Source: Bradyrhizobium barranii subsp. barranii (GTDB lineage: Bacteria; Pseudomonadota; Alphaproteobacteria; Rhizobiales; Xanthobacteraceae). From it: DNA of 64,000 bases. The stretch spans positions 4,447,501-4,511,500 of the forward strand of contig NZ_CP086136.1 of the NCBI RefSeq assembly GCF_017565645.3, read 5' to 3'. Position 1 is the stretch's first letter; each line of letters begins with the position of its first letter. A program made the translations under genes and the position numbers. Positions 12,970 through 28,956 of the stretch are shown piece by piece. The notes beneath the pieces are model-generated. The model ran no database searches. It was not told where the DNA came from and saw nothing but the letters and a program-made list of their open reading frames with translations.

Positions 12970-15900
12970 TCAATGCGTTGAGGTGCGTACGCGCGTGATC
13001 GTCTCGCGGACGCCGGTCCAGGCCGGCTTGTCCGGCGCGAACTGCTTGCGCAGGAAGCTGACGAGCTCTTCGACTTGCGCGTCGCTCATGCTGTTCTTGA
13101 ACGCCGGCATGTAGCCGAGATCGCTCGACACCGGCTCGGCGATGCCGTGCAGGACGACCTGCACGAGATTGTCCGATGTCGCGCTGTGCAGATTGCTGTT
13201 GAGCGCGAGCGAGGGCCGAGTTCCGAACAGCGGCAGGCCGCCGACCTCGTGGCAGACGGCGCAGGCGCCCTGATAGAGCCGCGCGCCGGTGGAAGGCGCC
13301 ACCGTGACCTGCGTTGAGCGTTCAAGCTTTGCGGCAAGTGCATCCTGGCCCCGCGTATCGATCGCGGTGTCGTTGAACGAGTTGAGATAGACCGCCATCG
13401 CGCGGATGTCGGGGTCGGGCAGGGCTTTGAGGTCCTTGACGATCGGCGCCATCGGGCCAGCCGCGACGCCGTGATAGCGCGAATGGCCGGTGCGCAAATA
13501 GGCGAACAGCTCGTCCTCGCTCCATGGGATCGGTGCGCGTGAGAGCGAGGTCAGCGCCGGCGCCTCCCAGCCCTCGGCAAAGCCGCCGGCGAGATAGGCC
13601 TCACGTTGCTCGGCGCCGAGCGCGTTGCGCGGCGAGTGGCAGGCGCTGCAATGGCCGAGGCTCTCGACGAGATAGGCGCCGCGATTCCACTGCTCCGATT
13701 TGGCGGGATCGGGCTTGAATTCTTGCGTGTGGTGAAACAGCGCATTCCAGCCCGCAAGCAGCGGGCGGAGGTTGAACGGGAAGGCGAGCGCATTCGCCGG
13801 CGCCGTGGCGCGAACCGAAGGCTGGGTCATCAGGTAGGCGTAGAGCGCCTGCATGTCGGCGTCGCTGGTCTTGGCGAAATGGGTGTAGGGGAAGGCGGGG
13901 TAGAGCTGCCGTCCGTCGCGATGCAGTCCGTCGCGCATCGCGCGCTCGAAGGCGGGATAGGACCAGGCGCCGATGCCGGTCTCGGCGTCGGGCGTGATGT
14001 TGGTTGAGTAGATCGTGCCGAACGGCGTCTGTAGTGCGCGGCCGCCGGCGTTGAGCACGCCATTGAGGCTGGTGTGGCACTCCGCGCAATTGCCGAGTGC
14101 TGCGAGTTGCTCTCCGCGCGCGATCGTCGCCGCGGAATAGACCGATGGATCGGGACGTGCGATCGGCGCGATCGCGCGTCCGGGCAGGAGTGCTGCGCCG
14201 ATGCCGATCGCGGCAGTGCAGACGGCCGCGATCGTCGCGAAGATGCCGGCGCGCTTGGCGAAGGGATTCTCCCAGATGCGGGACGGCGGCGATGCAGCGG
14301 GTGCGGGCAGGGCTTGCGGCACGGGCGATGCCTCACCGTGCAATCCCTTCAGGATGCGCTCCGGCGTGAACGGCGGCTCGCGAAAGCGCACACCGGTGGC
14401 ATCGAAGATCGCGTTGGCGATCGCCGCTGCGCTCGGCACCGAGGCGGACTCGCCGACGCCGAGCGGCGGCTGGTCCTGACGCGGCAACATCAGCACGTCG
14501 ATCTTGGGCACGTCAGGGAAAGGGATGATCGGATAGGCGCCCCATTCGCGCGCCGTCACCACGCCGCGCTCGAACGAAACCTCTTCCATCAGCGCGCGGC
14601 TGGTGGACTGGATGACGTTGCCGTGGATCTGGTGGCGCACGCCGTCCGGATTGATCATCAGGCCGGAGTCCTGCCCGGCGACGACGCGCGTGACGCTGAC
14701 ATCGCCGGTGGACTTGTTCACCGCAACGTCGGCAACCCAGGCCGACCACGCCGCACCATAGCCGGGAAACTTGCTGTGGACATAGAGCGCATAGGCAAAG
14801 CCGCGCCCGTGCACGATGTCGCCGTTTTTCTCTTCGCGGACAGGCCGGGGCGTCCAGCCCGCGCGCTCGGCCACCGCATTGACGAGATCGACGGCGCGCT
14901 GGTCCTTCAGGTAACGCAGGCGGTATTCGATCGGATCGACGCCGGCCTCGGTCGCGGCCTCGTCGATATAGGATTCATGCGCGAACGTGTTCGGCAGCGC
15001 CGAGACACCGCGAAACCAGGACGCGCGCACGATCGGCGCCATGTCGTGGGCGACGACGCGCATGTGGTCGTAGTCGTAAGGCGGAATCGCGGTGCGGTCG
15101 CCCATGTGGAGCACATCGGCCACCGGCGAGATTCGCCCCGTCAACAGCAGCGCCAATGTCGGCGCAGCGTTGGAAGGGTAGCGCGTGGCGAGGTCGTAGC
15201 CGGCGACGCCGCCGTCCGCGTCGAGCCCGCCATTGACGTCGATGAGCTGCGCGGTGCCCTTGGGCTCCCAGGCATGCTCCTGCTCGCGCGTCAGCTGCAC
15301 GCGCACGGGCCGGCCGACGGCGCGCGACAGCAGCAGCGCATCCGCGGTGACGTCATCGGCGCAGTTGCGGCCGTAGCAGCCGGCGGCCTCCAGGCGGATC
15401 ACCTCGATCTGGCTTTCGGGACGTTCGATCAGGAGCGCCAGATCGCTGCGCAGGACATGCGGGTTCTGCGTGCCCGACCAGACGCGGATGTTACCGTCCT
15501 GGACATCGGCGACCGCGCAGGACGGCCCGATCGAGGCGTGCATCTGGTACGGCCACACATAAGTGCGCTGCATCGGCTTGGCCGCGCCTGAGATCGCCTT
15601 ATCGACATCGCCCTTGTCGATCAGCGTGCGCGGCGTCGATGGATTGGCGCGCAGCGCGGTCTCGACGTCGGCGAGATCGGTCAGATGAGGCGTCGGCTTC
15701 CAGCTTACCGCGAGCTGCTCCGCCGCGCGGATCGCGTTCTCCTCGCGCTCGGCGACCACGCCGACGAAATCGCCGATGCGCACGACGGCAATGATGCCGG
15801 GAATGTCACGTACCGAGGACTCATCCACCGCGATCAGGCTGGTGCCGACGAACGAGCCGGCATCGACGCCGGCATAGGGCGGACGCACGACCCGGCCGTG

Positions 15901-16500
15901 CAGCATTCCGGGCACCCTAATGTCGTGCACGAAGGTCAGCTCGCGCGTCGCCTTGGCGGGCAGGTCGACGCGGGGCGTCGACTGGCCGACGATGGCGTAG
16001 TCGCCAACGGGCTTGAGTGCGACGTCGTCGGCAAGCTCGAGGCGAATGGTCTCGCCGCCGATCAGTTCGCCATAGCTGACGCTGCGGTTGTGCCCGCGCA
16101 CGAGGCCGTCTTCGATCTTGAGGTCGCTGGCCGGCAGCTCCAGCCGCTCGGCTGCGCGCGCGATCAGAAAGTGCCGCGCTTGCGCGGCGGCCTTGCGCAG
16201 GGGGACGGCGGTGATCTGGATGGTCTCGCTCGCGATCGTCGCGCCCTGGTTCGGCACCACGGCGGTATCGCCGAGCACCACGACGACGCGCGCAAAGGAC
16301 ACATCCAGCTCTTCGGCGACGATCTGGCCGAGTGCGGTGCGGATCCCGGTGCCGAGATCGACATGGCCGTTATAGGCCGAGACCGATCCATCTGCGGTGA
16401 TGCGGACGAAGGTTTCGGACGTGACTTCGTCCACGGTGCGGACGACGACGAGCGAACCGGATTGCCGCTCAGCTCCGTTCGAAAGAGGGGAGGCCATCAA
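12970..16500 (-). CDS. nicB: Nicotinate dehydrogenase large subunit: molybdopterin domain fused to tri-haem cytochrome c
   Basis: The 1176-residue product begins with an aldehyde oxidase/xanthine dehydrogenase-type molybdopterin-binding region (about residues 20-740). After a hydrophobic linker (IFATIAAVCTAAIGIGAALL) come three haem-binding motifs: CAECH (about 805), CSACH (about 950) and CAVCH (about 1078). This is the plan of NicB from Pseudomonas putida KT2440 (about 1190 residues), which hydroxylates nicotinate to 6-hydroxynicotinate and passes electrons out through cytochrome c. The ATG at 16500 overlaps the nicA stop by four bases. Isoquinoline 1-oxidoreductase has the same plan and is the main alternative, but the neighbouring reductase and enamidase favour nicotinate. 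Confidence 0.87.
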   Translation of the reverse strand: MMASPLSNGAERQSGSLVVVRTVDEVTSETFVRITADGSVSAYNGHVDLGTGIRTALGQIVAEELDVSFARVVVVLGDTAVVPNQGATIASETIQITAVPLRKAAAQARHFLIARAAERLELPASDLKIEDGLVRGHNRSVSYGELIGGETIRLELADDVALKPVGDYAIVGQSTPRVDLPAKATRELTFVHDIRVPGMLHGRVVRPPYAGVDAGSFVGTSLIAVDESSVRDIPGIIAVVRIGDFVGVVAEREENAIRAAEQLAVSWKPTPHLTDLADVETALRANPSTPRTLIDKGDVDKAISGAAKPMQRTYVWPYQMHASIGPSCAVADVQDGNIRVWSGTQNPHVLRSDLALLIERPESQIEVIRLEAAGCYGRNCADDVTADALLLSRAVGRPVRVQLTREQEHAWEPKGTAQLIDVNGGLDADGGVAGYDLATRYPSNAAPTLALLLTGRISPVADVLHMGDRTAIPPYDYDHMRVVAHDMAPIVRASWFRGVSALPNTFAHESYIDEAATEAGVDPIEYRLRYLKDQRAVDLVNAVAERAGWTPRPVREEKNGDIVHGRGFAYALYVHSKFPGYGAAWSAWVADVAVNKSTGDVSVTRVVAGQDSGLMINPDGVRHQIHGNVIQSTSRALMEEVSFERGVVTAREWGAYPIIPFPDVPKIDVLMLPRQDQPPLGVGESASVPSAAAIANAIFDATGVRFREPPFTPERILKGLHGEASPVPQALPAPAASPPSRIWENPFAKRAGIFATIAAVCTAAIGIGAALLPGRAIAPIARPDPSVYSAATIARGEQLAALGNCAECHTSLNGVLNAGGRALQTPFGTIYSTNITPDAETGIGAWSYPAFERAMRDGLHRDGRQLYPAFPYTHFAKTSDADMQALYAYLMTQPSVRATAPANALAFPFNLRPLLAGWNALFHHTQEFKPDPAKSEQWNRGAYLVESLGHCSACHSPRNALGAEQREAYLAGGFAEGWEAPALTSLSRAPIPWSEDELFAYLRTGHSRYHGVAAGPMAPIVKDLKALPDPDIRAMAVYLNSFNDTAIDTRGQDALAAKLERSTQVTVAPSTGARLYQGACAVCHEVGGLPLFGTRPSLALNSNLHSATSDNLVQVVLHGIAEPVSSDLGYMPAFKNSMSDAQVEELVSFLRKQFAPDKPAWTGVRETITRVRTSTH

Positions 16501-16979
16501 TCAACGGCCTCAGTGATCTGGCCGGATGCGCGCATCACCGCGCGCAGGATCTCGACATGGGTGCCGCAGCGGCAGAGATTGTAGCGCAGCGCCGCCAGCG
16601 CCTCCTGTTCGGTCGGCTGCGGGTTGATCGCGAGCAACGCCTTGGTGGTCATGATCATGCCGTTGAGGCAATAGCCGCATTGCGCGGCCTGCTCGTCGAT
16701 GAAGGCCTGCTGCACCACATCCGGCTTGTCGCGCGTGCCGAGCCCTTCGAGCGTCAGGATGTCGCGGCCTGCGCAGCCGCTCACGGGAATCACGCAGGAG
16801 CGCGCGGCCTGCCCGTCGATCAGGACAGTGCAGGTGCCGCATTCGCCCAAGCCGCAGCCATATTTCGGACCGTTGAGCGCGAGATCGTTGCGCAGCACAT
16901 AGAGCAGCGGCGTCTGCGGCGCTGCCGTGATCTCGTGGATCCTGCCGTTCACGGTGAGGCGGATCGGTGTCTGCGTCAT
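16497..16979 (-). CDS. nicA: Nicotinate dehydrogenase small [2Fe-2S] subunit
   Basis: The 160-residue protein carries two [2Fe-2S] sites: the plant-ferredoxin type CGLGECGTC plus a later Cys in AARSC, and the helical type CGYC with CRC in the C-terminal half. This is the standard small subunit of molybdenum hydroxylases. The true start is the ATG at 16979 (MTQTPIRLTV); the open frame extends far upstream, but that part is not protein-like. It heads the nicAB operon. A 16-bp operator lies 56 bases upstream (17035-17050). Electrons flow from the molybdenum site of NicB through these clusters to the NicB haems. Confidence 0.9.
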   Translation of the reverse strand: MTQTPIRLTVNGRIHEITAAPQTPLLYVLRNDLALNGPKYGCGLGECGTCTVLIDGQAARSCVIPVSGCAGRDILTLEGLGTRDKPDVVQQAFIDEQAAQCGYCLNGMIMTTKALLAINPQPTEQEALAALRYNLCRCGTHVEILRAVMRASGQITEAVD

Positions 16980-17034: not shown

Positions 17035-17050
17035 CGTTTGTACACAAACG
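17035..17050. promoter_or_regulatory. Palindromic operator upstream of nicA
   Basis: CGTTTGTACACAAACG has 7-bp arms around a 2-bp centre. It fits the consensus C[AG]TTNGT[AG][CT]ACNAA[CT]G shared with sites at 17188 and 28102, each in front of another nicotinate pathway gene. A MarR-type repressor such as the one encoded at 25003 is the likeliest binder. Confidence 0.75.
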
Positions 17051-17187
17051 TGCAAGCCGCGCATGCCGCACTGCAGCGCGACTGCCTTCTTTGTGGACAG
17101 AGCGGATAGGCAAATGGGGTTTTATGCGGCAGCCGCACCTTTTGCGCCGCACCGCCGCTTGACAGCCTTCGGGAGGGCGCGCAACAT

Positions 17188-17203
17188 CGTTCGTATACGA
17201 ATG
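17188..17203. promoter_or_regulatory. Palindromic operator upstream of the 6-hydroxynicotinate reductase gene
   Basis: CGTTCGTATACGAATG contains the perfect 12-bp core TTCGTATACGAA. Extended to 20 bp (17186-17205) it stays symmetrical except at one base pair. It ends 26 bases before the ATG at 17230, so the transcript probably has a very short leader. It fits the same consensus as the sites at 17035 and 28102. Confidence 0.75.
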
Positions 17204-17229
17204 ATAACCGCAGTCGACTGGCTTTGGAC

Positions 17230-18687
17230 ATGGTGACTGAAACGACGAGCGCCGCCATCGACAAGATCCGTTGCGATGCCTGTCCGGTGATGTGCTACAT
17301 CAAGCCGGGCGCGGCGGGCGCCTGCGACCGCTATGCCAATCACGACGGCAAGCTCGTCCGCGTCGACCCGCACGTGATCCTGGAACGCACCGTCTCGCAT
17401 GGCGGCAAGCTCGTTCCGTTCAGCCGCACCGAAGACTGGGACGGCAAGATCGTCCACGAGCCCTCGACCTTTGTGACAGCGATCGGTGCGGGCACAACCT
17501 ATCCCGACTACAAGCCGGCGCCGTTCATCGTCTCGTCCGAGATCGATGGCGTCGATATGGTGACTGTCGTCACCGAGGGCATCTTCTCCTATTGCGGCAT
17601 CAAGGTGAAGATCGACACCGACCGCTATCTCGGCCCGGAAACCGCGACCGTTCGCGCGCAGGGCGAGGCGGTCGGCCACGTCACGACAAGCGAATACGGT
17701 TCGCAGATGCTGTCGCTCGGCGGCGTGCATCATCTCACCGGCGGCTCCAAGAAAGAGGGCCGCGTCACCTGCGATACGCTGATGGATCTCGCCAATTGCA
17801 AGGCGGTCGAGCTGACCATCGACGGCGGCGCCAGCGTGGTGGTGCAGGCCGGCCAGCCGCCGATCGTCAACGGCATGAAGGAAGAGCGCATGCGCGTCGG
17901 CTGCGGCTCGGCGACGATCGGCATGTTCGCCAAGCAATGGCACGGCAAGGTCGACGAGGTCGTCGTCGTCGACGACCACATCACCGGCGTGCTCTCGGAG
18001 CATCAGGCCGGCAAGCTGCTCGACATCGCCGACACCGGCATCAAGATGAAGGGCCGCCGCTCGACGCCCGGCCGCTATTTCCAGGTCGCCGATCCCGGCA
18101 CGGGGTGGGGCGGCACCAACATTTCCGATCCGCTGGCGATTCTCGGGCCGTTCGACGCCAAGGAAGCCAAGCCTGGTCTCTCCATGCTGATGGTCTCCAC
18201 GACCGGCGAGCACTCGTCTTACTATGTGCTCGACGAGGCCCTGAAGCCGGTCGAAACCGAGATGCCTGATGACCTGAAGTTCTCGGTCGAGCGCATCCAG
18301 GAGAATTGCGAGCCGGCGCTGTGCACGGTGTTGTTCATGGCGGGGGCCGGCGGCTCCTTGCGCGCGGGCGTCACCGACAATCCGGTGCGGCTGACGCGTT
18401 CGGTGAAGGACGCGCTGACGCGCGTCACCAGCGGCGGCGCGCCTGTTTATGTCTGGCCGGGCGGTGGCATCACCTACATGGTCGATGTGACGCAGATGCC
18501 TTCAGGCGCGTTCGGTTATGTTCCGACGCCCGCGCTGGTCGCGCCGATCGAGTTCACGATGAAGCTGTCGGACTACGCCGCGCTCGGCGGGCACATGGAT
18601 CACGTCAAACCGCTCTCCGAAGTGCAGAACGGCGAAGATGTTCGCCAATTGCCCTGGCAGAACCCGATTCCGGGGCGCCGGGCATGA
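17230..18687 (+). CDS. hnr: 6-hydroxynicotinate reductase (ferredoxin-dependent)
   Basis: The 485-residue protein starts with a four-cysteine cluster site, Cys15, Cys18, Cys22 and Cys32 (RCDACPVMCYIKPGAAGACD), suited to a [4Fe-4S] centre. The remainder matches my recollection of the 6-hydroxynicotinate reductase family first known from Eubacterium barkeri, which reduces 6-hydroxynicotinate to 1,4,5,6-tetrahydro-6-oxonicotinate with reduced ferredoxin. Placement between nicAB and enamidase genes fits that step. Azorhizobium caulinodans is known to use this reductive route aerobically. The start at 17230 is preferred over an in-frame TTG at 17224. The ribosome site is weak. The stop overlaps the next start as ATGA. 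Confidence 0.82.
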   Translation: MVTETTSAAIDKIRCDACPVMCYIKPGAAGACDRYANHDGKLVRVDPHVILERTVSHGGKLVPFSRTEDWDGKIVHEPSTFVTAIGAGTTYPDYKPAPFIVSSEIDGVDMVTVVTEGIFSYCGIKVKIDTDRYLGPETATVRAQGEAVGHVTTSEYGSQMLSLGGVHHLTGGSKKEGRVTCDTLMDLANCKAVELTIDGGASVVVQAGQPPIVNGMKEERMRVGCGSATIGMFAKQWHGKVDEVVVVDDHITGVLSEHQAGKLLDIADTGIKMKGRRSTPGRYFQVADPGTGWGGTNISDPLAILGPFDAKEAKPGLSMLMVSTTGEHSSYYVLDEALKPVETEMPDDLKFSVERIQENCEPALCTVLFMAGAGGSLRAGVTDNPVRLTRSVKDALTRVTSGGAPVYVWPGGGITYMVDVTQMPSGAFGYVPTPALVAPIEFTMKLSDYAALGGHMDHVKPLSEVQNGEDVRQLPWQNPIPGRRA

Positions 18688-19580
18688 CCAGGCTCCCGCA
18701 AATCGCATTGCTGTCTGGTGGCCGGCGGCTGCATTTGCAGGATGGACCGATTGATCTGATCGTGGAGGCGAGGGGGCACGCGGACGCAGTGCGCGCGGCC
18801 TATGAGGCGGCGGCGCGGCGTTTCACCGGACTGCTCGACGAACTCTGCGCGGAATTGCCGGAACTGCGGACGGCTGCTGAGAAGCAGACTTCGCTGAAGG
18901 GCGTGGTGGCGCGTCGGATGCACGCTGCTGTCGCACCCTATGCCGCCGATTGCTTCATCACGCCGATGGCCGCGGTTGCCGGCAGCGTTGCAGAGGAGAT
19001 TCTTGGCGCCATGCTGGGCGCTGCGGCGCTCGATCAGGCCTATGTCAACAATGGCGGCGATATCGCGCTGCATCTCGGCGAGGGCGAGCATTTTTCGGTC
19101 GGCTTGATGGATCGGCCTGATCGTGACGGCGTGCTGCGCAAGATGAGGGTCTACTCAGGTGATCCCGTGCGCGGCATCGCGACCAGCGGGCGTCACGGCC
19201 GCAGCTTTTCGCTCGGCATTGCCGACGCGGTCACGGTGCTGGCTGCCACCGCATCGCAGGCCGATGCGGCCGCGACGGTCATCGCCAATGCCGTCGATCT
19301 GCCCGGGCATCCCGGCATCATCAGAAAGCCTGCGAACGAGCTTCAGCCCGACAGCGATCTCGGCGCGCGTCTCGTCACCCGCGATGTCGGTGAATTGTCG
19401 CAGAACGAGGTCGCGGCCGCACTGGAATCTGGCGCGGAATGTGCACGGCAATTGTTCGATCGCGGATTGATCGAGGGTGCCGTGTTGCAGCTTTGTGGTG
19501 ATATGCTTGTCATCGGAACCAAGGATATAGAAGAGCAACGAACGCGCCCGCTCATGCTGGAGAACGCGGTCTATGCCTGA
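18684..19580 (+). CDS. UPF0280 family protein (ApbE-like fold)
   Basis: This is a 298-residue protein of the UPF0280 family, which structural databases place in the ApbE-like superfamily. Recognisable parts are DCFITPMAAVAGSVAEEIL (about 90-108), YVNNGGDIALHL, GIATSGRHGRSFSLGIADAVTVLA and ANAVDLP. The ATG overlaps the reductase stop by four bases, so the two proteins are made together in fixed ratio. ApbE proteins attach FMN to other proteins; by analogy this one could mature the reductase, but that is inference only. No signal peptide is seen, so it acts in the cytoplasm. Confidence 0.8.
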   Translation: MTRLPQIALLSGGRRLHLQDGPIDLIVEARGHADAVRAAYEAAARRFTGLLDELCAELPELRTAAEKQTSLKGVVARRMHAAVAPYAADCFITPMAAVAGSVAEEILGAMLGAAALDQAYVNNGGDIALHLGEGEHFSVGLMDRPDRDGVLRKMRVYSGDPVRGIATSGRHGRSFSLGIADAVTVLAATASQADAAATVIANAVDLPGHPGIIRKPANELQPDSDLGARLVTRDVGELSQNEVAAALESGAECARQLFDRGLIEGAVLQLCGDMLVIGTKDIEEQRTRPLMLENAVYA

Positions 19581-19595: not shown

Positions 19596-20180
19596 ATGAG
19601 CGCGATCATCCGCAAGATCGTCACGGTCGTCGAAGAGACGCAGATGGAAATGGGCCGCCAGGTCTCGCCGCCGACGCGGCGCGCCGCGGCGATCGCCGTG
19701 ATCGAAAATCCCTTTGCCGGCAAATATGTCGAGGATCTCTCGCCCCTGATCGCCATCGGCGAGGAGCTCGGCGATCTCCTGGCGAAGCGCGCGGTGGCGG
19801 CGCTGGGCATCGATGGCGCGAAGGCGCAGAGCTACGGCAAGGCCGCGGCGGTCGGCGAGAACGGCGAGCTGGAGCATGCGGCGGCTATCCTGCATCCGAA
19901 GATGGGCGCTCCGGTGCGCAAGGTCCTGAGCAAGGGCGCGGCGCTGATCCCGTCGTCGAAGAAGCGCAGCGGCCCGGGCACGACGCTGGACATTCCGCTC
20001 GGGCACAAGGACGCCGCCTTCGTGCGCAGCCATTTTGACGGCATGGAGGTGCAGATCAACGATGCGCCGCGCGCCAACGAGATCATGGTCGCGGTCGCCG
20101 TCACCGATAGCGGCCGACCCTTGCCGCGTGTCGGCGGGCTGACGGTTGCGGAAGTGAAGGGTGAAGACGGTTTGAAATAG
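19596..20180 (+). CDS. DUF1185 ('amino acid synthesis') family protein
   Basis: The 194-residue product belongs to the family named for putative amino acid synthesis proteins (DUF1185); no reaction is established for it to my knowledge. Features include VVEETQMEMGRQVSPPTRRA near the start, AVIENPFAGKY, and a segment IPLGHKDAAFVRSHFDGMEV. The gene follows UPF0280 by 15 bases and precedes the transporter genes in the same direction, so it belongs to the nicotinate operon. The pathway step after enamidase (handling of 2-formylglutarate) has no obvious enzyme here, and this protein is one candidate. Confidence 0.75.
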   Translation: MSAIIRKIVTVVEETQMEMGRQVSPPTRRAAAIAVIENPFAGKYVEDLSPLIAIGEELGDLLAKRAVAALGIDGAKAQSYGKAAAVGENGELEHAAAILHPKMGAPVRKVLSKGAALIPSSKKRSGPGTTLDIPLGHKDAAFVRSHFDGMEVQINDAPRANEIMVAVAVTDSGRPLPRVGGLTVAEVKGEDGLK

Positions 20181-20260
20181 AGTTTGAACCGGGGAGGCGG
20201 GCATGGCTTCTCCGACAAGATCACGCTGAAGACGTAGAGAGTTCAAAACTGGAGGTTGGG

Positions 20261-21463
20261 ATGCGAGCGAGAAACACTTTTGTGGGCGCGGCCTTCGCGC
20301 TGCTGGCGGGCGGCATGGCTCATTCGGCCGTGGCGCAGGAGATCAAGATCGGCGAGATCAACAGCTACTCGCTGTTGCCGGCGTTCACCGAGCCCTATCG
20401 CAAGGGCTGGCAGCTCGCAGTCGAACAGGTCAACGCGGCCGGCGGCATCAACGGCAAGAAGCTCGTCGTCGTCTCCAAGGACGACGGCGGCAAGCCGGCC
20501 GATGCGCAGACCGCTGCCAACGAGCTCGTCTCCAGCGAGGGGGTTGCGATGCTGACGGGGACGTTCCTGTCGAACATCGGCCTCGCCGTCAGCGACTTCG
20601 CCAACCAGAAGAAGGTGTTCTTCCTCGCGGCCGAGCCGCTGACGGATGCCATCACCTGGTCCAAGGGCAACAAGTACACCTTCCGCCTGCGTCCCTCCAA
20701 CTACATGCAGGCGGCGATGCTGGTGGAAGCAGCCAGCAAGCTGCCGGCCAAGCGCTGGGCGACCATCGCGCCGAACTATGAATATGGCCAGTCCGCGGTC
20801 GCGGTGTTCAAGAAGCTGATGTCGGAGAAGCGCCCTGACATCCAGTGGGTCGACGAGCAGTGGCCGCCGCAGGGCAAGATCGACGCGGGTCCGGTGGTGC
20901 AGGCGGTTGCCGCAGCCAATCCCGAAGCGATCCTCAACGTCACCTTCGGCGCCGACCTCGTGAAGCTCGTGCGTGAAGGCAACACCCGTGGCCTGTTCAA
21001 GGGGCGCGAGGTCGTCTCGTTCCTGACCGGCGAGCCCGAATACCTCGATCCGCTCAAGGACGAGACGCCGGAGGGCTGGATCGTCACCGGCTATCCCTGG
21101 TACTCGATCAAGACGCCCGAGCATGACGCGTTCCTGAAGGCCTACCAGGCCAAGTACAACGACTATCCGCGCCTGGGCTCGATCGTCGGTTACCAGACCA
21201 TCAAGGCGGCCGCTGCGATCCTTGCGAAGGCCGGCTCGACCGATCCGGAGAAACTGATCGCCGCGGCGGAGGGGCTGTCGATGCCGTCGCCGTTCGGCGA
21301 GATCACCTTCCGCAAGATCGACCACCAGTCGACGCTCGGTGCCTATGTCGGCAAGACCGCGCTGAAGGACGGCAAGGGCGTGATGGTGGATTCTTCTTAC
21401 AAGAAGGGCTCGGACTATCTGCCGAGCGACGCCGAAGTCGATAAGCTGCGTCCGAAGGACTGA
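20261..21463 (+). CDS. Branched-chain-type ABC transporter substrate-binding protein
   Basis: The 400-residue periplasmic protein has a cleavable signal peptide (NTFVGAAFALLAGGMAHSAVAQ) and the Leu/Ile/Val-binding fold (Peripla_BP_6): IKIGEINSYSLLPAFTEPYRKGWQLA, KLVVVSKDDGGKPADAQ, and MLTGTFLSNIGLAVSDFA. GGAGG lies 7-8 bases before the ATG. It is followed by fused permease and two ATPase genes. Its position in the nicotinate operon suggests it binds nicotinate, 6-hydroxynicotinate or a related acid rather than an amino acid; this is inference from context. Confidence 0.85.
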   Translation: MRARNTFVGAAFALLAGGMAHSAVAQEIKIGEINSYSLLPAFTEPYRKGWQLAVEQVNAAGGINGKKLVVVSKDDGGKPADAQTAANELVSSEGVAMLTGTFLSNIGLAVSDFANQKKVFFLAAEPLTDAITWSKGNKYTFRLRPSNYMQAAMLVEAASKLPAKRWATIAPNYEYGQSAVAVFKKLMSEKRPDIQWVDEQWPPQGKIDAGPVVQAVAAANPEAILNVTFGADLVKLVREGNTRGLFKGREVVSFLTGEPEYLDPLKDETPEGWIVTGYPWYSIKTPEHDAFLKAYQAKYNDYPRLGSIVGYQTIKAAAAILAKAGSTDPEKLIAAAEGLSMPSPFGEITFRKIDHQSTLGAYVGKTALKDGKGVMVDSSYKKGSDYLPSDAEVDKLRPKD

Positions 21464-21615: not shown

Positions 21616-23505
21616 ATGGCCTTTTATGTCGTACAGTTTCTGACCGGTCTCGCCAGCGCAGCGTCGCTGTTCCTGGTGGCCTCGGGCCTGTCGATCATCT
21701 TCGGCGTGACGCGGATCGTGAATTTCGCGCATGGCGCCTTCTACATGATCGGCGCCTACATCGCCTTCACGCTGACGGAGCGGCTTTCGGGTGCGTTCGG
21801 CTTCTGGGGCGGGATCGTCGTCGCCGCGTTTGCCGTGGCCTTGATCGGCGTCATCGTCGAGATGGTGCTGCTGCGCCGCATCTATCACGCGCCCGAGCTG
21901 TTCCAGCTGCTTGCGACCTTCGGCCTGACCTTGATGGTCGAGGATCTCGTCGTGCTGATCTGGGGCCCCGACGATCTCGTCGGCCGCCGCGCGCCGGGCT
22001 TCAAGGGCGCCATCGATTTCTTCGGCCAGAACATCCCGAGCTACGATTTGTTCCTGATCGTGCTCAGCCCGGTCGTACTCGGCATTCTCTGGCTGCTGTT
22101 CCAGCGCACGCGCTGGGGCGTGCTGGTGCGCGCGGCGACGCAGGACCGCGACATGGTCGCAGCGCTTGGCGTCAACCAGAAATGGCTGTTCACATCCGTG
22201 TTTGCGGTCGGCGTCTTCCTCGCCGCACTCGGCGGCGCGCTCCAGATCCCGCGCGATGCCGTGCATCACGCCATGGATTTGCGGATCATCGTCGAGGTCT
22301 TCGTCGTCGTCGTGATCGGTGGCCTCGGCAGCATCGTCGGCGCCTTCGTTGCGGCGGTGCTGGTCTCCGAGCTCAACGCCTTCGGCATCCTGATCTTCCC
22401 GAAGATCTCCATCATCCTGGTCTTCCTGGTGATGGCGGTGGTGCTGATCGTCCGGCCCTGGGGTCTGTTCGGCAAGCCCGAGGCGCCCGCGCGCAAGACA
22501 CCAGGCCTCACTGTTAATCCCTGGCGGCCGCTGACGTCGAACGAGCGGCTCGCGGCGCTTGCCGCGCTCGTCATCGCGGCGACGTTGCCGCTGTTCGCCG
22601 GCAATTATGTTCTCACAGTCGGTTCGGAGATTGCGATCTTCGTGATCTTCGCCGTCAGCCTGCATTTCCTGATGTCGGTCGGTGGGCTCGCGTCCTTCGG
22701 GCATGCCGCTTATTTCGGTCTCGGCGCCTACGGCGTCGCCTTCCTCGCCAAGATGGCCGGGCTGCCGATGGTCGTGTGCCTGCTGCTCGGGCCGCTGCTG
22801 GGCTGCATGGGCGCTGCCGTGTTCGGTTTCTTCGCGGTGCAGCTTTCCGGCGTCTATTTCGCGATGCTGACGCTTGCGTTTGCGCAGATCGTCTGGTCGA
22901 TCGCGTTCCAGTGGGTGAGTGTAACGGGCGGCGACAACGGCATACTCGGCGTCTGGCCGTCAAGCTGGGCGGCGAGCCCGGGGCATTTCTATTGGTTGGC
23001 GCTCGGCGTTGCGGCACTTGTGACGGTCGCGCTTCGGGCCATGGTATTCTCGCCGTTCGGCTACGCACTCAGGGCCACGCGCGACTCGCCTCTGCGCAGC
23101 GAGGCGGTCGGCATCAATGCCAAGCGCATCCAGTGGACGGCGTTCGTGATCGCAGGCACGACCGCCGGCATCGGCGGCGCGCTGTTCGCCTACCTCAAGG
23201 GTAGCGTCTTCCCCGACAATCTTGGGATCTCGCTGTCGGTCGACGCACTGGTCATGGTGCTGCTCGGCGGCGTCGAGACGGTGTCGGGCGCGGTGATCGG
23301 CGCCATCGTCTACAAGGCGCTCAACATCTGGCTGGTCAGCCAGACCGACCTGTCAAAACTTGTGCTCGGTGGCTTCATCGTGCTGATCGTCGTCGTCTTC
23401 CCCAAGGGCATCGTTGGCATGCTGGAGATGCTGGCGCAGCGGCGCAGGAAGACATCGCCGCCGGGATCTCCCTTGCTTGCCAAGCCGATCGAGTCCGTCG
23501 AATGA
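21616..23505 (+). CDS. Fused LivH-LivM ABC permease
   Basis: The 629-residue protein joins two permeases that are usually separate. Residues 1-290 are LivH-like (LSIIFGVTRIVNFAHGAFYM, AATQDRDMVAALGVN, VVVIGGLGSIVGAFVAAVLV). Residues about 305-620 are LivM-like (SVGGLASFGHAAYFGLGAYG, LRATRDSPLRSEAVGINAKR, MVLLGGVETVSGAVIGA). Each half carries the EAA-like cytoplasmic loop that contacts an ATPase subunit. One polypeptide therefore forms both halves of the channel. The stop overlaps the start of the first ATPase gene. Confidence 0.9.
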   Translation: MAFYVVQFLTGLASAASLFLVASGLSIIFGVTRIVNFAHGAFYMIGAYIAFTLTERLSGAFGFWGGIVVAAFAVALIGVIVEMVLLRRIYHAPELFQLLATFGLTLMVEDLVVLIWGPDDLVGRRAPGFKGAIDFFGQNIPSYDLFLIVLSPVVLGILWLLFQRTRWGVLVRAATQDRDMVAALGVNQKWLFTSVFAVGVFLAALGGALQIPRDAVHHAMDLRIIVEVFVVVVIGGLGSIVGAFVAAVLVSELNAFGILIFPKISIILVFLVMAVVLIVRPWGLFGKPEAPARKTPGLTVNPWRPLTSNERLAALAALVIAATLPLFAGNYVLTVGSEIAIFVIFAVSLHFLMSVGGLASFGHAAYFGLGAYGVAFLAKMAGLPMVVCLLLGPLLGCMGAAVFGFFAVQLSGVYFAMLTLAFAQIVWSIAFQWVSVTGGDNGILGVWPSSWAASPGHFYWLALGVAALVTVALRAMVFSPFGYALRATRDSPLRSEAVGINAKRIQWTAFVIAGTTAGIGGALFAYLKGSVFPDNLGISLSVDALVMVLLGGVETVSGAVIGAIVYKALNIWLVSQTDLSKLVLGGFIVLIVVVFPKGIVGMLEMLAQRRRKTSPPGSPLLAKPIESVE

Positions 23506-24287
23506 GCGTCGCACCCCCACTTCTCGCGGTTGAAGGCCTGTCCAAATCCTATGGCGGCATCCACGCCGTGCGTGGCGTCTCGTTTTCGCTGCGATCAGGC
23601 GAAATTCTGGCGCTGATCGGCCCGAACGGCGCGGGCAAGAGCACCTGCTTCGACATGCTCAACGGCCAGAACAAGCCTGATACCGGCCATGTCCGTCTGC
23701 TCGGCGAGGAGACCACCGGCAAGAAGCCGCGCGAGATCTGGCGGCTCGGTGTCGGGCGCACTTTCCAGATCACCGCGACCTTCGCGACGATGACCGTGCG
23801 CGAGAACGTGCAGGTCGCGCTGATCTCGCACGGCAAGCAGCTGTTCAATCTCTTCGGCTCGGCGCCGAACTTCGACCGCGGCGAGGCGGGCCGGCTGCTC
23901 GAGCTGGTGGGCATGGGCGGCTACGCCGATCGACCCTGCGGCGAGCTCGCCTATGGCGACCTCAAGCGGCTCGAGCTTGCGGTGGCGCTTGCCAACGATC
24001 CCAAGCTGCTGCTGATGGACGAGCCAACCGCCGGCATGGCGCCGCGCGAGCGCGTCGACCTGATGCGGCTGACGGCGCAGATCGCGCGGGAAAAATCGAT
24101 CGGCGTGCTCTTCACCGAGCACGACATGGACGTGGTGTTCGAACATGCCGACCGCATTATCGTACTCAACCGCGGCACGTTGATCGCCGAAGGTTCGCCG
24201 GCCGAGGTGCGCGGCAATCCGCAGGTGCAGGCCGTCTATCTCGGCGAGGGCCTGCTTTACGATGCCGGGCATGGAGCCTCCGCATGA
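23502..24287 (+). CDS. ABC transporter ATP-binding protein, LivG type
   Basis: This is a 261-residue ATPase with Walker A GPNGAGKST (about residues 43-51), a signature-like region CGELAYGDLKRLELAVALA and Walker B LLLMDEPTAG, followed by a switch His in LFTEHDMDVVF. The extended helical region around 80-130 and the C-terminal tail YLGEG are typical of LivG. It overlaps both neighbours by four bases. It powers the transporter together with the LivF-type partner. Confidence 0.92.
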   Translation: MSVAPPLLAVEGLSKSYGGIHAVRGVSFSLRSGEILALIGPNGAGKSTCFDMLNGQNKPDTGHVRLLGEETTGKKPREIWRLGVGRTFQITATFATMTVRENVQVALISHGKQLFNLFGSAPNFDRGEAGRLLELVGMGGYADRPCGELAYGDLKRLELAVALANDPKLLLMDEPTAGMAPRERVDLMRLTAQIAREKSIGVLFTEHDMDVVFEHADRIIVLNRGTLIAEGSPAEVRGNPQVQAVYLGEGLLYDAGHGASA

Positions 24288-24988
24288 AGCTCACGGTGCA
24301 AGACCTCAACAGCCATTACGGCCCGGCCCATATCCTGTTCGACATCGGTTTCGAGGTCGGCGAGGGCGAGGTGGTGGCGTTGCTCGGCCGCAACGGCGCC
24401 GGCAAGTCGACGACGTTCCGCTCGATCGTCGGGCTCGTTGCCCAGCGCTCGGGGCGCATCATGTTCGAGGGCAAGGATGTCTCGGCGCGCCCGACGCATG
24501 AGATCGTGCGCGACGGGCTTGGTTACGTGCCCGAGGAGCGGCGCATCTTCACTGATTTGACGGTGGAGGAGAATCTCGAGGTCGGCCGGCAGCCGAAGCG
24601 TCCGAACGCCCCGCACTGGACCCGCGAAAAGCTGTTCACGCTGTTTCCAAATTTGGGTGAGATGAAGAACCGACCGGGCGGCCGCATGAGCGGCGGCGAG
24701 CAGCAGATGCTCACCATCGCGCGCACGCTGATGGGCAATCCGTCGCTGGTGCTGCTGGACGAGCCCTCGGAAGGCCTGTCGCCGAAGATCGTGGAGCAGA
24801 TGGTCGATGCCATCCTGACCATGAAGAAGGAAGGCGTCAGCATCGTCGTGTCCGAGCAGAATTTGCATTTTGCGCGGCTGATCTCCGACCGCGCCTATAT
24901 CATCGAGCGCGGCCGCATCTGCTTCGGCGGCACCATGGCCGAGCTCGACGCGCGTCCGGATGTCCGCGACGCGCATCTGTCGTTGTGA
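24284..24988 (+). CDS. ABC transporter ATP-binding protein, LivF type
   Basis: A 234-residue ATPase with Walker A GRNGAGKST, signature SGGEQQMLTIARTLM, Walker B LVLLDEPSEGLSP, and the LivF-like stretch GYVPEERRIFTDLTVEENL. It ends with DAHLSL, as usual for LivF. Together with the LivG-type subunit it forms the nucleotide-binding heterodimer. The frame ends 14 bases before the MarR gene, indicating that the regulator is cotranscribed with the transporter. Confidence 0.92.
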   Translation: MKLTVQDLNSHYGPAHILFDIGFEVGEGEVVALLGRNGAGKSTTFRSIVGLVAQRSGRIMFEGKDVSARPTHEIVRDGLGYVPEERRIFTDLTVEENLEVGRQPKRPNAPHWTREKLFTLFPNLGEMKNRPGGRMSGGEQQMLTIARTLMGNPSLVLLDEPSEGLSPKIVEQMVDAILTMKKEGVSIVVSEQNLHFARLISDRAYIIERGRICFGGTMAELDARPDVRDAHLSL

Positions 24989-25002
24989 GGGGCGGGGAGC
25001 GG

Positions 25003-25458
25003 ATGGCGAGAAGCGTTGCGGCGAAGAAAAGCGTCAAACCGGCAAAATTGTCTTACGTGCTCGACGAGCAGGTCGGCTTCATCCTGCGTCAGGTCTGGCA
25101 GCGCCACAGCTCGATCTTCTCGCGCGACATCGGCACCAATCTCACGCCGACGCAATGGGCGGCATTGTCGAAGCTGGCCGAGACCGGGCCATGCTCGCAG
25201 AACCAGCTCGGGCGGCTGACGGCGATGGATGTCGCGACCATCAAGGGCGTGATCGACCGCCTGACCGCACGGGGCCTGACCGAGACCAGCCAGGATCCCG
25301 AGGACGGACGGCGGCTTCTGGTCAGCCTGACGCGCGCCGGTCAGCAGCTTGCGGAGAAGGTCGCGCCGAGTGCGCTCGCGATCACCAGGGAAACGCTCGC
25401 GCCGCTCGACGCCAGGGAGCGCGAGATGCTGATGGCGCTGTTGAACAAGCTGCGGTGA
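25003..25458 (+). CDS. MarR-family regulator, NicR-like
   Basis: This 151-residue MarR protein has the winged helix in the middle (LTPTQWAALSKLAETGPCSQNQLGRL, MDVATIKGVIDRLTARGL, DPEDGRRLLVSLT). The start at 25003 has GGGGAG upstream. Its opening YVLDEQVGFILRQVWQRH and the rest strongly recall NicR of Pseudomonas putida and BpsR of Bordetella, repressors of nicotinate genes released by 6-hydroxynicotinate. It is therefore the likeliest binder of the three operators at 17035, 17188 and 28102. It is at the end of the transport operon. A palindromic repeat appears to have inserted at its stop codon. Confidence 0.85.
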   Translation: MARSVAAKKSVKPAKLSYVLDEQVGFILRQVWQRHSSIFSRDIGTNLTPTQWAALSKLAETGPCSQNQLGRLTAMDVATIKGVIDRLTARGLTETSQDPEDGRRLLVSLTRAGQQLAEKVAPSALAITRETLAPLDAREREMLMALLNKLR

Positions 25459-25579: not shown

Positions 25580-25625
25580 GGACTGGCGACTAACCTCGAT
25601 GAAGGGTTTGTCGAGGTCTTCCGAT

Positions 25626-26015: not shown

Positions 26016-26019
26016 TCCC

Positions 26020-26703
26020 TTACGTCTTCCCCGGCCATTTGGCGCGGTAGCGGATTTCGCTGCCATCGGCGAGCCGCCGCCACGTGCCGAACTCCGGCGT
26101 ATGCGGCGCCCGGGCCGTCAGGTCGATCGGATAGATCCGGCTCGGCTGGCCCTGGATGTTGACGGCGAGCTGCCGGTGCGAGGTTCTAAAGGCAAGCTCG
26201 ACTTCGCCTGCGATGACGGGTTGGTCGCCATCACGATAGAAGGCGTAGGGGGTCACTTCACCCGGCATGGTGTTGATGTCGGTCTGCAGCTCGATGGTAA
26301 TGCCTTGCGGTGACGTCGGCACCGTTGCTTCTGCCGGAAGACGAACCTCGAACACGAGCAGTGGATTGCTGGCGTTCGGATTGAGCCAGGGCGTGGCGGT
26401 CGTATACGCGTAGACGGCGTAAGTGACACCGGCGGCGAGGCAGAGCAGGACGACGACGCCGAGTGACTTCAGGCTGTTGCGTGCGAGGCCGCCGCTATTG
26501 TCGTCCTTGCGTGTCGCCAGCTTGGTGGCGAGCACCAGGCCGATGACTGCGCCGATGGGGGCGATGACGAACAGGGCGACCAGCCCCGTCGTGATCGGGT
26601 CTGCACGATTGCCGAAGCCGGTCAGCTCGAGCAGCCCGATCGTGGCGATGAAGCCTGCCACCGCACCGGCGATGCCGGCGGCAATCCGCAGCGAACTTTT
26701 CAT
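26020..26703 (-). CDS. Membrane-anchored protein of unknown function
   Basis: The 227-residue protein has three hydrophobic helices: about residues 5-27, 38-62 and 78-102 (SLKSLGVVVLLCLAAGVTYAVYAY). A soluble domain of about 120 residues follows, rich in beta-strand-like sequence (VFEVRLPAEATV, ITIELQTDIN, EVELAFRTSHRQLAVNI), probably outside the inner membrane. It ends RYRAKWPGKT. No family name comes to mind with confidence. It is convergent with the secreted protein gene, 4 bases apart. Confidence 0.65.
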   Translation of the reverse strand: MKSSLRIAAGIAGAVAGFIATIGLLELTGFGNRADPITTGLVALFVIAPIGAVIGLVLATKLATRKDDNSGGLARNSLKSLGVVVLLCLAAGVTYAVYAYTTATPWLNPNASNPLLVFEVRLPAEATVPTSPQGITIELQTDINTMPGEVTPYAFYRDGDQPVIAGEVELAFRTSHRQLAVNIQGQPSRIYPIDLTARAPHTPEFGTWRRLADGSEIRYRAKWPGKT

Positions 26704-26828
26704 GTCTCCCTCGATGGTCCAGCAATGAACTGCCGCCGCCGAGGGCTGCCTGCGTTAGACGCGGCAGGCAGCAGACTTGTTCAATGCCTTCGAGGCGCGA
26801 CGCGAAGCGGCGAGCTGCTCCGGCTGCG

Positions 26829-28025
26829 TCACTTCGCCACCACTTCCGGCACCCGGCCGGCCGGCGGCGTGTTGCGGCTGCGCTGGGTGCGCACGATGCC
26901 GTCGATGATGGTCATGCCGATGCCGGGGAGGTCGCCGAGCTGCACGCTCTCCAGGATGGTCTTGCCGGGCGAATGCTGCGCCTTGTCCATGATGACGAAA
27001 TCGGCGGAGCGGCCGACCTCGATCAGGCCGCAATCGAGCTGACGCATTCGCGCGGTGTTGCCGGTGGCAAGACAGAAGGCGAGTTCGGCCGGCAAATCGC
27101 CGAGCGAGGACAGCATCGAGACCATCCGCAAGATGCCGAGCGGCTGCACGCCGGAGCCGGCCGGCGCGTCGGTGCCGAGGATCACCCTGTGCAGATCGTT
27201 CATCTCGCGCGCGATGCGCAGCGTGAACAGGGCCGAGCGCTCATTGCCGTTGTGAACGATCTCGAGGCCGCGCTTGCAGCCCTCGCAGATGCAGCGGATC
27301 TGGTCGTCGGGAAGCGCGGTGTGGCCGCCATTGATGTGGCCGACCACGTCGGTGTCGGCCTCCAGCACCACGTCCTTGTCGATCAGGCCGGAGCCTGGGA
27401 TCGAGGGGCCGCCGGTGTGGATCGTGCTCTGGATGCCGTATTTGCGGGCCCAGCCGACCATCTTGCGCGCCGTCGGGCCGTCCTTGACGCCGCCGAGGCC
27501 GACCTCGCCGAGCAGCTTGACGCCCGCCGCGGCCAACTCCTTGAAATCCTCCTCGACCATCTCGCATTCGATCACCGGTGCGCCGGCGTGAACCTTCACG
27601 CCGCCCGGGCGCAGATTCCAGAATGCGCGCTGGGCGAAGATCGCCATCGCCTTCAGCCCGACGACGTCGCGCGGGCGGCCGGGCATGTGCACCTCGCCGG
27701 CGGAGATCATCGTGGTGACGCCGCCATGCAAATTGCTGTCGATCCAGCCGATCTGGTTCTGGCGCGGCGTCCAGTCGCCCGCCACAGGGTGGACATGGCT
27801 GTCGATCAGGCCGGGCGCGACCGTGGTGCCGTTGGCCTCGACGATGGTGGTCGCGCCTTCGGTGTTGAGGTCCTTGAAGCGGCCGATCGCGGTGATCTTG
27901 CCGTTCTCGGCGACGATGGTGTCGCCGTCCAGGATCGGCTTTTCCAGGGCGCCGGACAGGATCAGGCCGATATTCCGGATCACGAGCTTCGAGGGTCCGG
28001 TGGCCTGGGGGGCGTCATGCGCCAT
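26829..28025 (-). CDS. ena: Enamidase (amidohydrolase of nicotinate degradation)
   Basis: The 398-residue amidohydrolase has the metal motif HVHP (APGLIDSHVHP), a later His in HTGGPSIPGSG, and Asp in VILGTDAPAGSG. The composition and the segments QIGWIDSNLHGGVTTMISAGEVH and HINGGHTALPD match enamidase, the binuclear metal enzyme that hydrolyses 1,4,5,6-tetrahydro-6-oxonicotinate to ammonia and 2-formylglutarate. AAGGAG lies 8 bases before the ATG. The gene is divergent from the ferredoxin reductase gene, with an operator of the nicotinate type between them. With nicAB and hnr it makes the three-step upper pathway complete. Confidence 0.85.
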   Translation of the reverse strand: MAHDAPQATGPSKLVIRNIGLILSGALEKPILDGDTIVAENGKITAIGRFKDLNTEGATTIVEANGTTVAPGLIDSHVHPVAGDWTPRQNQIGWIDSNLHGGVTTMISAGEVHMPGRPRDVVGLKAMAIFAQRAFWNLRPGGVKVHAGAPVIECEMVEEDFKELAAAGVKLLGEVGLGGVKDGPTARKMVGWARKYGIQSTIHTGGPSIPGSGLIDKDVVLEADTDVVGHINGGHTALPDDQIRCICEGCKRGLEIVHNGNERSALFTLRIAREMNDLHRVILGTDAPAGSGVQPLGILRMVSMLSSLGDLPAELAFCLATGNTARMRQLDCGLIEVGRSADFVIMDKAQHSPGKTILESVQLGDLPGIGMTIIDGIVRTQRSRNTPPAGRVPEVVAK

Positions 28026-28101
28026 GGAAGGGGCTCCTTGTTCCTAACTGCAACGCTCGCGATCTTGGGCAGCCTTGACCCCGGGAGCAAGCAGGATTAT
28101 T

Positions 28102-28131
28102 CATTAGTACACGAATGATCGTGTACAAACG
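28102..28131. promoter_or_regulatory. Double palindromic operator between enamidase and ferredoxin reductase genes
   Basis: A 16-bp site CATTAGTACACGAATG (28102-28117) fits the nicotinate operator consensus exactly. Overlapping it is a perfect inverted repeat GTACACGA-ATGA-TCGTGTAC (28107-28126), and a second, weaker consensus match ends at 28131. The arrangement suits divergent control of both flanking genes. Confidence 0.75.
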
Positions 28132-28182
28132 ACGCATAGCTGCCCGCCTCGGAACCGCATTGGAAGCGACAGGGAAGGTGAG

Positions 28183-28956
28183 ATGAGCAATTTCAATCAG
28201 GAAAGCGTTTTGAGCGTCCACCACTGGACCGACACGCTGTTCTCTTTCAAGACCACCCGCAGCCCGACCTTCCGTTTCCGCAACGGCGAATTCACCATGA
28301 TCGGGCTCAAGGTCGGCGAGAAGCCGCTGCTGCGGGCCTACAGCGTCGCCAGCGCCAATTACGAGGAAACGCTTGAGTTCTTTTCGATCAAGGTGCCGGA
28401 CGGTCCGCTGACCTCGCGCCTCCAGCACCTGAAGGAAGGCGACGAGATCATCGTCAGCCGCAAGGCCACCGGCACGCTGGTGATCGACAACCTCGAAGAG
28501 GGCCGCAACCTCTACCTCATCGGCACCGGCACGGGCCTCGCGCCGTTTCTGAGCGTGATCAAGGACCCCGAGACCTATGAGCGGTTCGAGAAGGTCGTGC
28601 TGCTGCACGGCTGCCGGCATGTGAAGGAGCTCGCCTATGGCGAGATGATCACCGAGACGCTGCCGAAGGACGAACTGATCGGCGAGTACATCCGCGATCA
28701 GCTGATCTACTATCCGACCGTGACCCGCGATCCCTTCCGCAACCGCGGCCGCATCACCGACCTCATCACCTCCGGCAAGCTGTTCGCCGATATCGGCCTG
28801 CCGCCGCTGGAAGCCGCCCATGACCGGGTCATGATCTGCGGCAGCCCGGCATTGGTCGCTGACACCCGCGTGCTGCTGGGCGAGCGCGGCCTCATTGAGG
28901 GCAATCACGGCGAGCCGGCCCAATTCGTGGTCGAAAAGGCCTTTGCCGAGCGCTGA
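28183..28956 (+). CDS. fpr: Ferredoxin/flavodoxin-NADP+ reductase (bacterial type)
   Basis: This 257-residue FAD enzyme has RAYSVASANYEETLEFFSIKV (FAD binding, about 48-68), GPLTSRLQHL, GTGTGLAPFLSVIKDPE for NADP(H), and MICGSPALVADTRVLL near the end. It is the length of bacterial subclass I enzymes such as Azotobacter and Rhodobacter Fpr. It moves electrons between NADPH and ferredoxin in the cytoplasm. AAGGTGAG precedes the ATG directly. The nicotinate-type operator 50 bases upstream suggests that here it supplies reduced ferredoxin to the 6-hydroxynicotinate reductase. It may also be the general Fpr of the cell. Confidence 0.9.
   Translation: MSNFNQESVLSVHHWTDTLFSFKTTRSPTFRFRNGEFTMIGLKVGEKPLLRAYSVASANYEETLEFFSIKVPDGPLTSRLQHLKEGDEIIVSRKATGTLVIDNLEEGRNLYLIGTGTGLAPFLSVIKDPETYERFEKVVLLHGCRHVKELAYGEMITETLPKDELIGEYIRDQLIYYPTVTRDPFRNRGRITDLITSGKLFADIGLPPLEAAHDRVMICGSPALVADTRVLLGERGLIEGNHGEPAQFVVEKAFAER

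Follow-up and report, generated by a model that had tools for sequence, protein, structure and literature searches.

We analysed a 64,000-nucleotide stretch of the Bradyrhizobium barranii subsp. barranii genome (NZ_CP086136.1, positions 4,447,501 to 4,511,500; hereafter the window), which contains a gene island that can be assigned with high confidence to the reductive route of nicotinate degradation. In this island the gene for 6-hydroxynicotinate reductase (Hnr) is directly followed by a gene for a UPF0280 protein. The identical distribution of the two over 32 genomes and 26 plasmids and their constant adjacency argue that UPF0280 is probably a dedicated maturation partner of Hnr. That the partnership is specific to Hnr appears quite probable from these comparisons, and UPF0280 would likely act in the maturation of an Hnr cofactor, for which a flavin and sulfur are both possible. 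The island itself is known; new here are the tie between UPF0280 and Hnr, which had no part in the reasoning of the first-pass annotation of this DNA, the jobs proposed for UPF0280 and for a neighboring DUF1185 protein, and a set of shared palindromes.

The window protein scored 428.6 bits against the UPF0280 family model NF003322, which has a curated cut-off of 290. Co-occurrence was determined in 398 Pseudomonadota genomes from 212 genera, and plasmid records were scanned separately. Hnr was present in 32 of the 398 genomes and UPF0280 above the cut-off in 32, and the two sets were identical; two genomes with UPF0280 scores below the cut-off (G293 and G373) were excluded. In all 32 genomes the UPF0280 gene was the next gene downstream of hnr, on the same strand and within ∼0.6 kb. 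At the genus level Hnr occurred in 15 of 212 and UPF0280 in 16 when all matches at E 0.001 were counted, the extra genus being represented by two weak matches below the cut-off. Hnr was found in 26 plasmid records and UPF0280 in 27, with all 26 common to both. A phylum-wide comparison of 28 loci (20 genomic and 8 plasmid, 26 of them from outside Bradyrhizobium), in which matches under set identity, bit-score and length limits were excluded from the gene calls, showed that UPF0280 accompanied Hnr in 28/28, irrespective of the hydroxylase or ring-opening enzyme. In the window, the start codon of UPF0280 overlaps the stop codon of hnr (ATGA). One single-frame Hnr-UPF0280 protein (P0067) was rejected as a true fusion; its junction resembles a frame slip.

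Some points weigh against a strict tie. The 398 genomes share descent, and the raw chance value for the co-occurrence of Hnr and UPF0280 is not a probability; the tie was established within the Pseudomonadota, in genomes and plasmids; and a repeat search for Hnr in 289 genomes, with 21 matching and all of these within the earlier 32, is not an independent sample. The 27th plasmid, from Hydrogenophaga, carries four UPF0280 copies, and the C-terminal remnant of Hnr just upstream of both examined copies (47% identity) is short, with 26 residues and E 7e-4. These two copies sit in units linked to the insertion sequence (IS) element IS1071. On this plasmid (L141:8975-9998 and 19784-20807) the repeated IS1071 UPF0280 unit stands beside Rieske-oxygenase genes and is apparently passenger DNA.

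Hnr has a four-Cys site (C17, C20, C24 and C34, counted from position 17224) that was invariant in 28/28 aligned sequences; C124, C227 and C362 were invariant as well, which amounts to seven invariant Cys residues. The locus L131 (8725-10274, genome G016) was excluded from this alignment; here Hnr is split over two overlapping frames, either by a sequencing slip or in a broken gene. The close homologues of Hnr are named either 6-hydroxynicotinate reductase or hypothetical protein in their sources. No Pfam family scored above its cut-off for Hnr, no match to DUF39 was obtained in the Pfam scan at E up to 10, and no relative of solved structure was found, even by profile. The predicted structure was poor, with a predicted local distance difference test (pLDDT) of 58.1 and a predicted template modeling score (pTM) of 0.44 from an alignment of 45 sequences. 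The Hnr of Eubacterium barkeri reportedly, in the work of Alhapel from 2006, contains a covalent flavin and iron-sulfur clusters.

The nearest solved relative of UPF0280 was 2o34 (DVU1097 of Desulfovibrio vulgaris), which is consistent with UPF0280 and COG2122 being one family, as we presume. The predicted structure of UPF0280 was likewise poor (pLDDT 53.7, pTM 0.58, alignment of 34 sequences), and in a search with this model only 2o34 fell below E 0.001; the next matches, FmnB (0.092) and ApbE (0.18 and 0.44), were not significant. When UPF0280 was compared with a profile of 18 ApbE sequences, built from the 18 of 30 ApbE loci that passed a filter, a similarity to this flavin transferase (PF02424) was detected over residues 99-199 with a probability of 93% and E 2.8e-7 (one comparison). 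The ApbE motifs GGD, ATSG and ADxxxT were kept. They include two residues of the catalytic triad, Ser and Asp, whose published roles (PMC12052999) were matched to the motifs by spacing count. Several results speak against UPF0280 being a true ApbE. The PF02424 score was 20.9, below the cut-off of 25.6, while some close UPF0280 relatives are labeled PF02424; the ApbE loop HHILDPxTG with the catalytic His257 was absent from UPF0280 in the profile alignment; and the ApbE target motif DxxSGAT was present in 0/29 Hnr sequences, one of which is only half a sequence. With no His loop and no target motif in Hnr, canonical ApbE-type flavinylation by UPF0280 was rejected. Replacement of His257 in ApbE is reported to lower the activity and to keep the fold (PMC12052999), and the missing His in UPF0280 is therefore not decisive alone. 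The genome of the window contained no ApbE at E 0.001, so that, if Hnr is flavinylated, UPF0280 would be the only ApbE-related candidate found. Close UPF0280 homologues also carry the label PF27030.1, which was unreported for the window protein in the Pfam copy scanned.

Sulfur offers a different connection, which we hold to be possible though doubtful: UPF0280 might serve Hnr by building or repairing an iron-sulfur cluster or a persulfide, as has been proposed in the literature for COG2122 with DUF39. Homocysteine synthesis, including that of D. vulgaris, is reported to require COG2122 proteins (DvMF_0044 and MA1715) along with DUF39 and a NIL/ferredoxin protein, and a persulfide role and a missing flavin-binding region are noted in the same text (PMC5764234). 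The seven invariant Cys residues of Hnr and 2o34 as nearest solved protein would agree with this, although the partner is DUF39 with the ferredoxin protein there and Hnr here. However, not one of the 52 invariant positions in 29 UPF0280 sequences is a Cys, which makes it unlikely that UPF0280 carries sulfur itself, and DUF39 was absent from 398/398 genomes (E 0.001), so that homocysteine synthesis of the DUF39 type cannot explain UPF0280 here. The open-licence literature found contained no settled chemistry for UPF0280, and its COG2122 relatives appeared there only with homocysteine synthesis. The strict operon partnership with Hnr, whatever the ring-opening enzyme, would fit equally well if UPF0280 were no maturation factor and instead a pathway enzyme whose substrate was 6-hydroxynicotinate, the product of its reduction or a tautomer of that product. 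This is unlikely, as the related COG2122 serves homocysteine synthesis, with which no such substrate is shared (PMC5764234), and the E. barkeri route is described as a reduction followed directly by enamidase. Cofactor maturation of Hnr stays the likely role of UPF0280 in what follows.

The genes of the island, all of which were found by open reading frame and family searches at the positions given in the first-pass annotation, are as follows, with their ends refined from the sequence.

12970..16497, minus strand: nicB, molybdenum-cofactor subunit of nicotinate dehydrogenase with a C-terminal triple cytochrome c (MoCoBD and cytochrome c Pfam matches)
16497..16979, minus strand: nicA, 2x[2Fe-2S] subunit of nicotinate dehydrogenase (PF00111, PF01799; start codon picked from the sequence)
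17230..18687, plus strand: hnr, 6-hydroxynicotinate reductase with N-terminal four-Cys cluster site (homologue naming, invariant Cys)
18684..19580, plus strand: UPF0280 protein, proposed Hnr maturation partner (NF003322, co-occurrence with Hnr, 2o34, weak ApbE similarity)
19596..20180, plus strand: DUF1185/AA_synth (PF06684) protein, with a proposed role on the product of ring opening (PF06684, 2qtp, gene contexts)
20261..21463, plus strand: periplasmic binding protein of the importer (PF13458)
21616..23505, plus strand: fused LivH-LivM permease (two BPD_transp_2 stretches)
23502..24287, plus strand: LivG-type ATPase (PF00005, PF12399)
24284..24988, plus strand: LivF-type ATPase (PF00005)
25003..25458, plus strand: MarR regulator (PF01047)
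26829..28025, minus strand: ena, enamidase (2vun relative)
28183..28956, plus strand: fpr, ferredoxin/flavodoxin-NADP+ reductase, likely electron supply (PF00175; NF008178 below cut-off)

The conservation of the island was determined in 80 Bradyrhizobium loci, the best 80 of 364 matches, whose record titles read Bradyrhizobium or, in one case, Bradyrhizobiaceae. Hnr, UPF0280, DUF1185, NicA and the binding protein were each present in 80/80 loci, NicB in 79, LivHM, LivG, LivF and MarR each in 78, Ena in 74 and Fpr in 68; some of the stretches stop at contig or flank limits. The grouping of the genes is thus not due to chance. The Hnr of the window was 100% identical to a protein of B. barranii subsp. 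apii (NZ_CP096255.1). A membrane-protein-like gene within the island (26020-26703, minus strand) occurred in only 27/80 loci and was not counted as part of it, and integrase-core (IS-type) and HerA-like ATPase genes lie upstream at 8086-8913 and 9748-11508.

The claim that the island encodes a reductive nicotinate route was borne out by family, homologue and solved-structure searches, which placed a molybdenum-family hydroxylase (NicAB, with nicotinate as putative substrate), an Hnr homologue and an enamidase homologue. The best structural matches of NicB were chains of 8gy3, a membrane dehydrogenase, whereas those of 3hrd, the nicotinate dehydrogenase of E. barkeri, scored lower. NicB was 53% and 57% identical to the products of plasmid genes annotated nicB, and its cytochrome c tail, which we take to be a mark of NicB, has three CxxCH haem sites. 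The enamidase matched 2vun with E 7.4e-109, the match covering residues 12-395 of its 398, and Fpr scored 163 bits against NF008178, under the cut-off of 390. It is very improbable that the hydroxylase and the reductase act on another N-heterocycle, for example isoquinoline. Such a substrate would suit the NCBIfam scores of NicAB, which were generic for the xanthine dehydrogenase family with none above cut-off, and the presence of another hydroxylase in 16/28 related loci, but the enamidase relative 2vun, the naming of Hnr and the cytochrome c tail of NicB speak against it. A further point against it is strain SG-6C, which is reported to have the same cluster and an Hnr 42% identical to the E. 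barkeri protein, and to grow on nicotinate with transient 6-hydroxynicotinate (PMC3511419, in part).

The same partial source describes a nicotinate cluster with a transporter and two unknown proteins in Bradyrhizobium japonicum USDA110, Azorhizobium caulinodans ORS571, Rhodopseudomonas palustris HaA2 and SG-6C (PMC3511419); these two proteins, unnamed in the text, are taken to be UPF0280 and DUF1185. The island is therefore another copy of the published cluster, from which no difference was found in that text, and the earlier statement that the route is known in Azorhizobium, where it is reported to run via glutarate, agrees with it. The earlier view that the particular combination with the fused LivHM, DUF1185 and fpr deserved description did not survive: the cluster was already published and LivHM and Fpr recur in other genera. 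A LivHM relative, each time in a single frame of ∼1.9-2.0 kb, was found in 14/28 of the phylum-wide loci (12/26 outside Bradyrhizobium) and an Fpr relative in 8/28. Hnr and enamidase are shared with the nicotinate fermentation of E. barkeri, the first step of which is said (Alhapel, in 2006) to involve a different, four-subunit hydroxylase, its 2-formylglutarate being reduced and not sent to glutarate.

Around Hnr and UPF0280, the composition of the 28 loci varied. The hydroxylase was NicAB-like in 10 (L129 having only NicA in the stretch), a fused iron-sulfur/molybdenum protein with a flavin adenine dinucleotide subunit in 16, and neither in 2. For ring opening, enamidase was present in 9 loci and a HyuA relative of 60% or more in 11, and no locus had the two together at this level; L135 combined enamidase with a 42% HyuA match. 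The remaining 8 loci had neither in the stretch, and in G287, G339, G123 and G194 enamidase was located elsewhere. Enamidase orthologues (at least 65% identity) were found in 18/32 Hnr genomes, including that of the window. Near Hnr and without enamidase or HyuAB nearby, L119 has an isochorismatase-family gene (14950-15564) and L122 an amidase gene (5281-6696), which, from their neighborhood, are perhaps further ring-opening enzymes.

The DUF1185 protein matched PF06684 with E 2.4e-75 and 252.3 bits (cut-off 27), and its nearest solved protein was 2qtp (E 1.1e-87). Its salt-bridge and His residues (E91, E93, H94, R174 and R178) were invariant in 49/49 aligned sequences, from which the overlong frame of L140 was excluded. 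PF06684 occurred in 59/398 genomes, two copies being adjacent in 9 of these, and in 31/32 Hnr genomes, each of the 31 with a copy beside UPF0280. DUF1185 away from Hnr was studied in 18 loci; the sampling covered 16 of the 28 genomes that have DUF1185 without Hnr, and second copies in two Hnr genomes. In 13/18, relatives of a hydrolase and an aldehyde dehydrogenase adjoin DUF1185; of these 13, 12 also have a flavin reductase and 11 a luciferase-like (LLM) oxygenase. Among 387 plasmid records with DUF1185, eight without Hnr were inspected, and the same setting was found in 6/8 of these annotated loci. We read the 13 genomic and six plasmid loci as putative trigonelline-type clusters. Trigonelline breakdown reportedly passes an intermediate of the 2-formylsuccinate level. 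The DUF1185 relative TgnF, which assists late in the breakdown of this nicotinate derivative, is reported to stimulate the TgnE-dependent semialdehyde oxidation (PMC7913881); the ring is opened by an oxygenase there, whereas the partner is Hnr here. The occurrence of DUF1185 with nicotinate and trigonelline clusters and the Azorhizobium route via glutarate fit a shared job on 2-formyl acids. Against this stand the Hnr genome G139, which has no DUF1185 (1/32), the 5/18 loci away from Hnr with neither context, and the DUF1185 protein HcdD, described as a homologue of TgnF, which is reported to have given no stimulation in its own pathway (PMC7913881). Hnr-linked and other DUF1185 proteins had a mean identity of ∼38%.

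From these contexts it is fairly likely that DUF1185 acts after ring opening, and a more specific function as decarboxylase can be proposed tentatively. To a similarly limited degree it is conceivable that DUF1185 hydrolyzes the enamine formed by ring opening or helps the aldehyde dehydrogenase. The stimulation by TgnF, the Bacillus chorismate mutase-like fold described for DUF1185 (PMC2954203), and the occurrence of DUF1185 in loci of the HyuAB type, where ring opening need not free ammonia, would suit such a role, but DUF1185 also stands beside enamidase, which is itself already deaminating. The first-pass annotation had found the consumer of 2-formylglutarate not recognizable; gene contexts and TgnF now make DUF1185 the best candidate for handling it. 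Two DUF1185 copies accompany enamidase in L190 and L191 (genomes G123 and G194), where Hnr and UPF0280 are missing and Hnr lies on another contig, and in L145 of Sinorhizobium medicae one copy, 62-78% identical to eight second-paralogue sequences (among 25), lies beside a HyuA/HyuB pair with no Hnr nearby. These loci (L190:2073-12544, L191:1869-12457 and L145:4793-12641) also contain two nucleoside hydrolases, an isochorismatase-family protein and MarR, and possibly represent pyridine nucleoside salvage feeding the nicotinate route.

The palindrome CGTTYGTRYACRAAYG occurred exactly at 17035 and 17188 and with two mismatches at 28102 and 28116, and at no other place in the window with up to two mismatches. 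A palindrome scan gave the following putative operators, which carry no strand.

17035..17050: operator copy 1, nicA side, CGTTTGTACACAAACG
17188..17203: operator copy 2, hnr side, with a TTGACA lying upstream of it at 17159-17164
28102..28117: operator copy 3, at ena/fpr, with two mismatches
28116..28131: operator copy 4, at ena/fpr, with two mismatches and sharing 2 bases with copy 3

These sites lie in two divergent promoter regions, that of nicA and hnr and that of ena and fpr, and four copies of one palindrome there suggest one regulon. The earlier grouping of ena/fpr with nicA/hnr gains a common predicted operator in this way. Four sites in 64 kb at up to two mismatches compare with a total of 1 match in 10 mononucleotide shuffles (one strand). 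Four sites were present in 65/80 Bradyrhizobium loci, three in 5 and two in 10, and at least one site in 19/28 phylum-wide loci, in some not beside hnr. The significance of the palindrome is lessened by a dinucleotide-preserving control, in which 10 sites in the whole window at three mismatches were not unusual (7.7 ± 3.6 expected), so that only sites with 0-2 mismatches exceed a control, and a weaker, mononucleotide one; further, 9/28 phylum-wide loci had no site at up to two mismatches.

The MarR regulator (25003-25458) would be the protein that binds the putative operators. Its closest solved relative was 2nnn (E 4e-46), followed by BpsR (6pcp and 6pco, E 5e-26 and 9e-26). The residues of BpsR that contact 6-hydroxynicotinate are described in a paper which also states that they are not kept in Pseudomonas putida NicR (PMC6837509). 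MarR has three of the four (Tyr15, His23, Arg26 and His32), with His23 replaced by Phe, and thus does not have the full set of contacts of a BpsR-type sensor, although it may function as one all the same.

The gene identities, the co-occurrence and the shared palindromes seen in the sequence are probably best explained as a whole by a single MarR-controlled regulon that converts nicotinate to 2-formylglutarate. We infer that the importer would bring in nicotinate, and that NicAB would hydroxylate it, giving 6-hydroxynicotinate and passing the electrons out via cytochrome c. Hnr would then form 1,4,5,6-tetrahydro-6-oxonicotinate with electrons probably supplied by NADPH via Fpr, and enamidase would open the ring and release ammonia to yield 2-formylglutarate. 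UPF0280, made together with Hnr through the overlapping stop and start codons, would be needed solely for Hnr maturation and would most likely place or attach a flavin or iron-sulfur cofactor. DUF1185 would act after ring opening, most likely by decarboxylating 2-formylglutarate towards glutarate semialdehyde. A bolder combination appears decidedly improbable, in which UPF0280 would be an ApbE relative that lacks the His and fixes the covalent flavin of Hnr at a non-ApbE site, and so the first known case of another class of flavin-attaching enzymes, a soluble one, and in which DUF1185 would supply the missing decarboxylation of 2-formyl-dicarboxylic acids in both nicotinate and trigonelline breakdown.

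For the DUF1185 family, the label 'amino acid synthesis' rests partly on neighboring genes annotated as branched-chain amino acid importers. The solved 2qtp is, by inference, SPO0826 of PMC2954203, which adjoins genes labeled branched-chain amino acid ATP-binding cassette transport. As 2qtp is closely related to the DUF1185 protein of the nicotinate island, the label probably misleads where this branch is concerned. For UPF0280, the strict association with a single reductase, in aerobic bacteria that are easy to grow, means that its chemistry becomes testable.

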